From Candidatus Zixiibacteriota bacterium (GTDB lineage: Bacteria; Zixibacteria; MSB-5A5; GN15; FEB-12): a stretch of 64,000 nucleotides of DNA. A program made the position numbers and the translations under genes. The notes below the pieces were generated by a model. That model was not told the DNA's origin. It ran no database searches and saw only the letters and a program-made list of their open reading frames with translations. The stretch's first letter is position 1. Each line of letters begins with the position of its first letter. This document shows positions 3,333-17,402 of this stretch, piece after piece. The stretch is taken from positions 186,001 through 250,000 of the forward strand of contig JAOUBJ010000005.1 of NCBI GenBank assembly GCA_029860345.1, read 5' to 3'.

Positions 3333-4157
3333 TTCATCCTCCTATTGCATTGATCGCTGTTGCTCGACCTCCAGAAATCGCCATCTCTGGCAAGATGCCT
3401 TGGTTAAGCCTTTCACACACTGTTACAAACATATACTATCAAGGACGACACTGATAATCAATAATCTACGTCTATCTTAGCCAAGCCGATTTCCAGCTTC
3501 GCCCCAGCAAAACCCCCACATCATCCCCGCAGAAACTGGCTGGCTCCCGCTTAGTAAAGGACCTTACTATGCCTACGAGTGAAAGACAAATAGCAGTCAA
3601 CCGCCACACGGCCAGTCTCATGCAACACCCGGATCAGTCCGACATCCCACCTCACTCCGGCGGAAAAGTACTTTTTCCGCAAAACAAACCCATTTCGCCG
3701 ACCATTGGCGTTCCCATTGCAAGTTGAAGATGTCTATGCAGAGAAGATGGATTCCCGTCCCAAACAAGGTTTGAGACGGCCACCCGAATCGAAGAACTGG
3801 ATTCCGGCCTTCGCCGGAATGACAAAATGCAGACGGGTCCCGCAATCGGCGGGTCCGAAAACGGACCCACCCTACAAGAACTGAGCGGAGTCGAAGCATG
3901 AATACACGGCAGATATGGACATCTGCCGGGCACAGCTGAAGTGCCTTGAAACACGGACCAAGGTCCGGGCCACCCGCCATACCGAGCGGTGTCGAGGTAT
4001 GAACGTTCTTCCTTTGGTACCCCACCCAGAGGCTTTGCGTCGGGTGGGATCATAAATGTACATGGGGCACCGGTTAGAGGCGGATCCGAAGACAGACCTA
4101 TTTCAAAGTCACCCTTCGACTCCGCTCAGGGTGAGGTGGTGAAAACAAACCCGGCAA
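3333..4157. repeat. Gene-free repeat mosaic (825 bp)
   Basis: No convincing gene. The first 150 bases are AT-rich and probably hold the promoter of the minus-strand gene. Further on are a repeat C copy (3754-3785, CCCGTCCCAAACAAGG...GAC GGCCACCC), a GGATTCCGGCCTTCGCCGG hairpin near 3800, a repeat A-like fragment near 3830-3875, a repeat E fragment (CTGAGCGGAGTCGAAGCATG, near 3882-3901) and a repeat D copy (4111-4134, ACCCTTCGACTCCGCTCAGG). All recur elsewhere in the window. Confidence 0.7.
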
Positions 4158-9377: not shown

Positions 9378-9488
9378 TCATGCTGAGCGCAGTCGAAGCA
9401 TGAAGTAGGGCGGGTCCGTCTTCGAACCCGCCAGGTCGTCAGGACCACACCGAGAATCCCACCCGATGCAAAGCCTCTGAGTGGGGTA

Positions 9489-9562
9489 CCGGTTTCCAAG
9501 TGGCGCACGAGGACGTACACCACGCACAGTCTTTGGTCTTGTAGGGCGGAACCCTCTTAGTG
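9489..9562 (+). repeat. 74-bp direct repeat H, copy 2
   Basis: Second copy of the element at 9304-9377. It ends in TTGTAGGGCGGAACCC, which resembles the start of repeat A, so the families share modules. Confidence 0.85.
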
Positions 9563-9612
9563 GTTCCGCCATCGGTGGACGACAGAACCAGAATCGGTTC
9601 TGCCCTGCTTCT

Positions 9613-9635
9613 CTGTCAGGCGAGTCGCCTGACAG
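9613..9635. repeat. Palindrome F (CTGTCAGGCGA/TCGCCTGACAG)
   Basis: Eleven-base perfect arms around one base. The same element is at 32340-32362 (perfect arms) and 39900-39922 (outer 8 bases of the arms kept). It would form a strong cruciform or RNA hairpin. Confidence 0.8.
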
Positions 9636-9852
9636 CACCGGGAACTTCGGCTTGACAGGTGTCGGGCGGGGTCGCCCAACACCATGAATAGGAATTGGCG
9701 GGTCCACGCCGCGGCGCGCAGGCGAAGACGGACCCACCCTACAAGCACCGGTATAGTAGGTCAATCCGCCGCGGCGGATTGTGGTCCTGACGTGTTGCCC
9801 GGTGTCAGGTCCGTAAAGGACCTGACCTACAAGAGAACTCGCCCACAATAAG

Positions 9853-15864: not shown

Positions 15865-16746
15865 TCACAACGCTCCCGACCAGTGCGTAATCTCAACGCC
15901 GAGACCCAAAGATACATCAACGCCGGTTCCGGAACCGAATTCGGGGTTATCAAAATCGAGACTAAAGACCGAGACCCGAAACGAAAGCCAAGTCAGAACT
16001 CGATGGATTCCCCCGTGGAGTTCGGCTCTGTCGAGGAGCAGGTCAAAGCGCACGGCACCCAGCGGCCGGGCTCGACTTTCGGCGTTCAGATTCCAATTGG
16101 GGTGACGGTCGTAATACTGGTGACGCTCCTCAAGCTTATCCCATCGCAGTCCGATTTGAGGTATTACGCGAAGCCCGCGGCGATCATAAAGCTGGTACTC
16201 AAGCTGCAAAAGAGTCGCTGTCGACTTAAAGTCCAGATACGACAGCGGATAACCCGACCGGCGGGAAAAACCTCGACTGACTTGGTAATGTTCAACGTGC
16301 GTGCCGTAGGAGATAGCTATCCTGCGATACCGAAAACCGACGGTAGTCAAACCCATCGCACCGTTTTCAAGAGCGTCGCCCGCACGGCCCGAATACGATA
16401 CATCGCCAAACAAGAGACTAATGTTCAACCAGGGGCCGGGCGCTTTGGACGATGTCCAGGACCGTGACGAATCGCTCCCATCGGAGCTTGTCGACAAACC
16501 CGCATTTTGTTGTGTCGGGTCCTGAACGCGCCGAAGGCGTTGTGGTGACCCGACACCTAACACCATGTTGGACTGCCGCGGCGGGTCACGCGGAGCACGT
16601 GGGTCGCAGGACCCACCGCAACAATCTGCAGAGACTTCATCAACATCCCCATCGGCCCGAGTATGCGGTGCCGCACACAAAAGCACCGCCGCCACCAACC
16701 ACGCCCGAACAAACCGCTGAGCCGTGAACAAGTGGGTACGTCTCAC
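15865..16746 (-). CDS. Outer-membrane beta-barrel-like protein with an internal repeat insertion
   Basis: 293 residues: an N-terminal signal peptide (VRAWLVAAVLLCAAPHTRA) and then, from about residue 105, alternating polar/hydrophobic strands (WLNISLLFGDVSYSG, GLTTVGFRYRRIAISYG, ATLLQLEYQLYD) ending in a strand, as in outer-membrane barrels. Residues about 42-80 are Arg/Pro/Gln-rich and are encoded by palindromic DNA of the intergenic repeat type (16505-16620). It overlaps the preceding barrel gene by four bases. The two barrel proteins look like distant paralogues. Function unknown. Confidence 0.7.
   Translation of the reverse strand: MRRTHLFTAQRFVRAWLVAAVLLCAAPHTRADGDVDEVSADCCGGSCDPRAPRDPPRQSNMVLGVGSPQRLRRVQDPTQQNAGLSTSSDGSDSSRSWTSSKAPGPWLNISLLFGDVSYSGRAGDALENGAMGLTTVGFRYRRIAISYGTHVEHYQVSRGFSRRSGYPLSYLDFKSTATLLQLEYQLYDRRGLRVIPQIGLRWDKLEERHQYYDRHPNWNLNAESRARPLGAVRFDLLLDRAELHGGIHRVLTWLSFRVSVFSLDFDNPEFGSGTGVDVSLGLGVEITHWSGAL
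16512..16616. repeat. Palindromic element inside a coding sequence
   Basis: GTGTCGGGTC (16512-16521) pairs with GACCCGACAC (16547-16556), and GTGGGTC (16599-16605) with GACCCAC (16610-16616) around a 4-base loop. Both resemble intergenic families A/B of this window, yet the segment lies in frame in the barrel gene and adds about 38 low-complexity residues. Confidence 0.6.
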
Positions 16747-17402
16747 GGCAACAACCGCCGTTCTAAGACAAAGCCAAAGCTGAAACCACGGACCGCGCCG
16801 GACCTGAGCACTTTGTCTCCGAAGTCCATTGTGGATAGAAACCCCTGAACACGGAACCAGAGGTCACTCTCACCCAACCAGGCCAGGAACTCTCGATTTG
16901 GGATCGATAGGCGCATCCCCAGAGTCAGCCCCAGAGACGCAGCCGGTCGACTCCACACCCCCAAGTCGTCGGTTACCTCCCACTCAAGCTCGCTTGGAAA
17001 ATCCGCCTCACGCACATAGTGCCATCCAACACCGGCCTTCGGCGTTATGCGGATTCGCGAATGAGCCGCAATGGCATACCCGACCTCAAGACCCCAGTAG
17101 CCTACCTGAAGGTTGACCTTTCCAGCCGGCATGCCGAAACGATCGGCGTAGCTTTGGTTCACTTTCGGTGTTCCACCGACAAACCTGGCGCCCATAGTCA
17201 GTTCGCTCCTGCGAACTCCCAATAGGACGGCAATCACATTCGACCGCTCCAACACATCCCCCGGGTCGCCGTCAAACCACTGTTCTCCAAATGATAAACC
17301 GATACAGATTCGTGGTGTTACGCGTGAGTCGCCAGAATCCCCGACGATAGGTATCTCATCGCCGTAGGCTCTGAGAGCCATTAACGTCATACCGATCACC
17401 AA
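16743..17402 (-). CDS. Outer-membrane beta-barrel-like protein
   Basis: About 219 residues with strand-rich sequence (ICIGLSFGEQWFDG, SNVIAVLLGVRRSELTMGAR, VNLQVGYWGLEVGYAI, RIRITPKAGVGWHYV) and a C-terminal strand GFSFGFVLE. First gene of the barrel-barrel-dockerin operon. The start is uncertain. TTG 17402 is the first standard codon, but GGGAGG sits six bases before an in-frame ATC at 17417. From there the protein would begin IKLKLLVIGMTLMALRAYG, a complete signal peptide with positive residues. It may be an ATC start or a mutated ATG. The length given is the conservative one. Confidence 0.65.
   Translation of the reverse strand: MVIGMTLMALRAYGDEIPIVGDSGDSRVTPRICIGLSFGEQWFDGDPGDVLERSNVIAVLLGVRRSELTMGARFVGGTPKVNQSYADRFGMPAGKVNLQVGYWGLEVGYAIAAHSRIRITPKAGVGWHYVREADFPSELEWEVTDDLGVWSRPAASLGLTLGMRLSIPNREFLAWLGESDLWFRVQGFLSTMDFGDKVLRSGAVRGFSFGFVLERRLLP

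Follow-up and report, generated by a model that had tools for sequence, protein, structure and literature searches.

An in-frame MITE-like element in a predicted exported-protein gene of a Candidatus Zixiibacteriota bacterium and its likely IS1182-type partner

In the stretch of DNA analyzed here, 64,000 nucleotides long and referred to as the window, the gene at 15865-16746 contains a palindromic segment that is open in the reading frame. The question raised by this locus is whether an element of intergenic type has been inserted in frame into an existing gene, as proposed in the initial annotation, and, if so, what kind of element it is and how it was moved. The palindromic arms reported there are exact, with GTGTCGGGTC at 16512-16521 and GACCCGACAC at 16547-16556, and each occurs only once in the window. 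Perfect hairpins with 10-bp arms gave 10 seed hits in the window, located at 6 separate places once overlaps were merged, as compared to 0-4 seed hits in each of 10 mononucleotide shuffles. A lone hairpin of this kind is only mildly unusual, and it is the repetition that makes the observation real.

With positions 16495-16640 as the query, the own genome (4.76 Mb in 35 contigs) yielded at least 54 matches at E<=10 and at least 37 at E<1e-4, the query counted; both numbers are lower bounds, based on 40 scored candidates out of 60 found at first look. Nearly all of the matches are intergenic, which agrees with the initial view of an intergenic-type element with similar DNA elsewhere in the genome. 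The element was present in 12 of the 61 genomes searched, the own genome included, and in six of the seven genomes of the genus. At least 41 matches were found in G026, which belongs to another genus (40 of 86 candidates scored). Scans of genome contigs for the element hairpin gave no match in a scanned set that possibly did not include the own genome. A search for an Rfam identity of positions 16300-16800 returned a single match, rejected because its 18.3 bits fell below the gathering score of 75. The suggested likeness to repeats in other gaps of the window found no support: the best other match in the window was 19 nt long (E 0.085), and the GGGTC/GACCC palindromes near 3850 and 9700 did not align with the element. 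Palindromes belonging to several other families, among them GGGTC/GACCC hairpins and CTGTCAGGCGAGTCGCCTGACAG, are dense in the intergenic DNA of the window at 3757-3880 and 9380-9850.

The element and its parts were placed in the window as follows:

16484-16650, no strand assigned: MITE-like element of 167 bp, placed from own-genome matches, alignments and ends
16480-16483, no strand assigned: left copy of the target-site duplication ATCG
16651-16654, no strand assigned: right copy of the target-site duplication ATCG, with a period of 171 bp, or 57 codons
16484-16494, plus strand: left terminal inverted repeat GAGCTTGTCGA (family form GGGCTTGTTGA)
16640-16650, plus strand: right terminal inverted repeat TCAACATCCCC (family form TCAACAAGCCC)
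16509-16556, plus strand: hairpin 1, GTTGTGTCGGGTC through GACCCGACAC, containing the 10-bp arms
16571-16625 (ends approximate), plus strand: hairpin 2, a related unit inverted, from copy alignment and folding

The initially proposed extent of 16505-16620, with about 38 residues, was thus too short; the element and one copy of its ATCG duplication account for 57 residues. The 11-bp terminal inverted repeats of the window copy are eroded, and its hairpin 2 is 12 alignment columns short of most copies. Folding of the minus strand of the element was better than that of shuffles (z -4.1). A common design was evident in most of the 30 best oriented copies, which begin with the left end GGGCTTGTTGAnAA, followed by the hairpin GTTGTGTCGGGTC...GACCCGACAC, a spacer, the second related hairpin in inverted orientation and the right end TCAACAAGCCC; several of the 30 are truncated, altered or have a longer spacer. 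Both ends were recognized in 13 copies, with lengths of 167-180 bp (151-180 bp before the right end of copy L029 was re-placed); seven of these are exactly 179 bp long, and the window copy is 167 bp. A long-spacer variant with about 40-50 extra bp between the hairpins was observed in L019, L021, L024 and L030, and the copy in L102 (G000:C1:400576-400857) is split by another palindromic repeat family.

The ends of the element behave as transposon ends. With at most one mismatch, GGGCTTGTTGANAA occurred 73 times in the own genome, as compared to 14 times for the reversed control. Identical flanking 4-mers were found in seven of the 13 end-recognized copies, the window copy counted, with p 5e-5; this value is the floor of 20,000 permutations, 17 of the 30 copies having been dropped with unrecognized ends and the right end of L029 having been misplaced by the script. 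An earlier, looser test on 13 copies had given p 2e-4. Among all elements with paired terminal inverted repeats in the loci retrieved from the own genome and its relatives, a set with several interior types and two IS copies, 31 of 58 had identical flanking 4-mers, whereas permutations gave a mean of 1.5 and a maximum of 7 identical pairs. The window copy is not part of this set, its ends being too divergent.

In the 31 duplicated cases the flanks were complementary at 4.5 of 7 positions, as compared to 3.2 expected (p 2e-4, the floor), and thus the duplicated 4-mer is often the loop of a small hairpin. An IS copy in G016 is flanked by CCCACAG-CAAG-CTGTGGG, with the loop 4-mer duplicated. Insertion into the loop, with duplication of the loop, was also observed at hairpins resembling CCCGGAC-NNNN-GTCCGGG, in G016:C351 (L133:372-1785), L125, L154, L230, L032 and others. 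At the window copy the flanks pair at 3 of 7 positions, which is not above chance, and no hairpin target is visible there. The own-genome elements in L108, L109, L110 and L112 have very different interiors and the same GGGCTTGTTGA ends, and L109 has two left ends in series. Since differing interiors share these ends, several MITE families may have been moved by a single transposase.

A candidate for such a transposase was found in related genomes. In G003, a member of the same genus, a 1413-bp IS has the same GGGCTTGTTGA ends and a transposase split by one stop, which matches the IS1182 family (NF033551); its two pieces, scored apart, reached 148 and 218 bits, neither of them attaining the cut-off of 270 that applies to the whole protein. 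A relative with 74% identity, intact over a frame of 450 codons and with the same GGGCTTGTTGA ends, was found in G016. A PF01609 transposase search of the own genome gave no match, nor did a search of it with the N-terminal half of the G003 transposase, which probably leaves the own-genome copies stranded. The only facing pair of terminal inverted repeats 1-2 kb apart in the own genome, as judged by eye (C7:14773/15943), was rejected as an autonomous copy, because its left end is inside an ordinary ORF and an element of 189 bp accounts for its right end. The element is thus a MITE, a small transposon without a transposase of its own: it is short, has many copies and no transposase ORF, shares its terminal inverted repeats with the IS in G003 and G016, and is flanked by target-site duplications, both in 31 of the 58 paired elements and, as ATCG, at the window copy.

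The insertion lies in one of three adjoining reading frames:

15865-16746, minus strand: host gene, 293 codons when read from GTG, the first possible start, with a signal-peptide-like N-terminus, the insert and a predicted exported domain
16743-17402, minus strand: upstream tandem homologue, 219 codons, without the inserted segment
15107-15868, minus strand: downstream ORF, with a 4-bp overlap with the host gene if the first possible start is used

The insert corresponds to residues 33-89 of the host protein and is in frame within the ORF, with the signal-peptide-like part upstream of the element. The 167 bp of the element and the 4 bp of the duplication sum to 171 bp, which preserves the frame and lengthens the protein by 57 residues; if these 171 bp are excised, the frame also stays open. 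When first possible starts are taken, the host gene shares 4 bp (GTGA, minus strand) with each of the neighboring ORFs, and therefore the host gene starts before the element and ends after the exported domain. The downstream ORF has what we take to be dockerin-like repeats near its C-terminus.

The host protein had no match in Pfam, the upstream homologue had a sub-threshold match to autotransporters, and a single-sequence structure model of the host protein was too poor to use (mean pLDDT 36); the barrel nature ascribed to its domain is unproven. No convincing orthologue of the host gene was found in the 53 other genomes of the family, and the empty site was thus not seen directly. The only homologue of the domain worth naming in the 54 family genomes, the own genome counted, is the upstream tandem gene (E 6e-4), with about 20% identity over part of the domain; weak matches to the C-terminal part alone were found in G015 (E 0.002) and G068 (E 0.05). 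Scans of genome contigs for the exported domain gave no match, here too in a set that possibly did not hold the own genome. The upstream homologue runs from signal peptide to domain without the segment, as judged from a comparison of the N-termini by eye; in the MAFFT alignment its signal peptide was set against the element, and this alignment does not place the gap.

Codon scores, in bits per codon, were -0.26 for the first 32 codons of the host gene, -0.19 for the element and +0.11 for the domain, as compared to +0.14 for the upstream homologue and +0.24 for the downstream gene. From the negative score of the element and the positive scores of the domain and the homologue, from the lack of the segment in the homologue and from the 4-bp overlaps, we infer that a gene was already present when the window copy arrived. 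The host protein is presumably produced and functional, and the insert presumably neutral.

The host gene could instead be a decaying pseudogene or an unexpressed ORF, with a frame left open by luck in G+C-rich DNA, an explanation that we consider unlikely. Consistent with it, an open frame through the element is not special (22 of 78 frames are open in the full copies, as compared to 19.6 in shuffles, for which reason a special coding design of the element was also rejected), the score of the first 32 codons is low, an antisense frame is likewise open across the domain, and the 53 other family genomes have no convincing orthologue. However, the domain after the element scores best of the six frames in the proposed frame, the open antisense frame being next at +0.04, and the gene has its 4-bp overlaps with the ORFs on both sides. 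Moreover, the net insertion is a multiple of three despite the eroded ends, suggesting that the insertion is old and that the frame has been kept open.

In-frame insertion was shown for a sister copy in G026, located in the following gene:

G026:C62 (L161:564-2201): reductive-dehalogenase-like Fe-S gene with an in-frame element

The copy at G026:C62:2626-2798 is in frame in an Fe-S ORF of 545 codons, and a coding signal is present on either side of it. Matches of the protein include Fe-S domains and solved proteins of the reductive dehalogenase type, and 21 of 53 genomes, G026 counted, have a match to it. Of the 20 other genomes with a match, 17 were aligned; G021, G065 and G072, with partial matches, were left out. 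Exactly 59 residues are absent at the element in all 17 aligned orthologues, in agreement with a footprint of 173 + 4 = 177 bp, or 59 codons. The flanking 4-mers, CACA and CATA, are identical at 3 of 4 positions. The gap in the orthologues corresponds to residues 224-282 and the element to approximately residues 222-279 of the G026 protein, a shift within the ambiguity of the alignment. Together with the tandem homologue that lacks the segment, this sister copy supports the reading of the window copy as an in-frame insertion, which we regard as strongly indicated.

Copies within genes are rare. We examined 150 element-bearing stretches (44 from the own genome and 106 from relatives), 148 of them distinct and 17 close to the end of a contig or locus. 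A rule that required coding signal on both sides was passed by the G026 copy only, and missed the window copy, the upstream part of which is too short; in total, two of the 148 distinct copies are in frame inside genes. No gene broken out of frame was flagged among the 150 stretches by the same rule, which ignored frame. Thus, the few copies that survive in genes keep the frame, a pattern to be expected if insertions into genes are mostly lost. Judged by eye, the own-genome copies in L006, L025, L026, L029 and L102 were rejected as genic, the element being at the 5' end of a stop-to-stop frame, before a plausible start or in a frame that is not protein-like, and L190 in G026 was rejected likewise. 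The footprint is divisible by three in 10 of the 13 full copies, which share descent, and the commonest footprint, 179 + 4 = 183 bp, is a multiple of three.

Two further explanations concern the origin of the segment. The element might be a REP/BIME pair mobilized by a RAYT (Y1) transposase and not a MITE moved by a DDE transposase, which we find very improbable. The own genome has five Y1_Tnp genes, the interior of the element consists of two inverted G+C-rich hairpins as in a BIME, and the locus L064:1883-1940 has a hairpin of similar design to hairpin 1. Still, this match is weak (E 0.02) and the best among the five RAYT loci (L061-L065), all of which match the element only weakly. The palindromes that adjoin several of the RAYT genes differ in sequence and have a GTAG tag in L061-L063, whereas the foot of the element hairpin is GTTG; neither a GTAG-type tag at the hairpin foot nor a position as a REP beside a RAYT gene was found for the element. 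The family has common GGGCTTGTTGA ends and 4-bp duplications, features that REP elements are not known to have. The five RAYT-type genes of L061-L065 lie beside palindromic repeats of different sequence. That the segment is an ancestral protein linker, from which the repeat arose or on which it converged, can hardly be credited: no orthologue shows an empty site for the host gene, but dozens of intergenic copies with transposon ends, the duplication at the window copy, the tandem homologue without the segment and the sister insertion with 17 of 17 empty orthologues all argue against it.

We therefore consider it highly probable that a MITE of about 180 bp, moved by an IS1182-type transposase, was inserted in frame into an existing gene, which thereby gained a linker of 57 residues. 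As read from the sequence, this non-autonomous element would once have depended for its movement on an IS1182-type DDE transposase acting in trans. Such an enzyme would recognize GGGCTTGTTGA ends and favor the 4-nt loop of small hairpins as the site of insertion, with duplication of the loop. In the 15865-16746 gene, one copy would have entered between the parts for the signal peptide and the exported domain, where its sequence and its footprint of 171 bp would happen to permit translation, and the linker gained by the host protein is probably unstructured.

The process is best known from the Rickettsia palindromic elements (RPEs), which measure about 105-150 bp and are described both from intergenic DNA and, in frame, from within protein-coding genes (PMC2229807, PMC10969869). 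The window element is similarly palindromic, mostly located between genes and also present in frame inside a protein gene, and for the G026 copy the orthologues lack the insertion. Unlike the RPEs, the family belongs to an unrelated lineage, has 4-bp duplications and an IS1182-type partner in relatives, and is rarely genic, whereas RPEs often are. The parallel with Rickettsia drawn in the initial annotation thus holds for in-frame insertion into genes, as in G026, but not as a full equivalence, the family being almost always intergenic. The element thus works in the manner of an RPE, but it represents a MITE family that is new, and we set it apart from the RPEs for the rarity of its genic location.

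Occasional inclusion in a host ORF is also described for the MITEs ERIC/IRU, YAPL and QMITE2, which are short, lack autonomy and are bounded by terminal inverted repeats (PMC2229807, PMC5896051). In all of these respects the window element resembles them. Its ends and partner presumably differ from theirs. IS1182-family relatives such as IS1272 are reported to prefer inverted-repeat targets, IS1272 replacing the target stem-loop without duplication, and duplication of the loop alone is drawn there as a model of an alternative pathway (PMC5678879). The match of the partner to NF033551 and the preference for inverted-repeat targets fit the IS1182 family, but unlike IS1272 the window family often duplicates the 4-nt loop. 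No description of the element was found in the open-access papers searched.

New protein segments have been proposed to arise by in-frame insertion of small mobile palindromes, for which Rickettsia offers the best documentation and enterobacteria and Coxiella further cases (PMC2229807, PMC10969869, PMC5896051). We tentatively suggest, as a possibility, that selfish palindromes outside Rickettsia also donate peptide segments, here by two independent in-frame insertions in two genera and in opposite orientations, from a MITE with a commonest footprint of 183 bp and through an IS1182-type transposase that inserts in hairpin tetraloops and duplicates them. With a case in a new lineage, a second insertion verified in orthologues (n=17) and a likely partner transposase, the process looks general and the family provides a tractable example. 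A hairpin-tetraloop target would help to explain why such elements are mostly intergenic.
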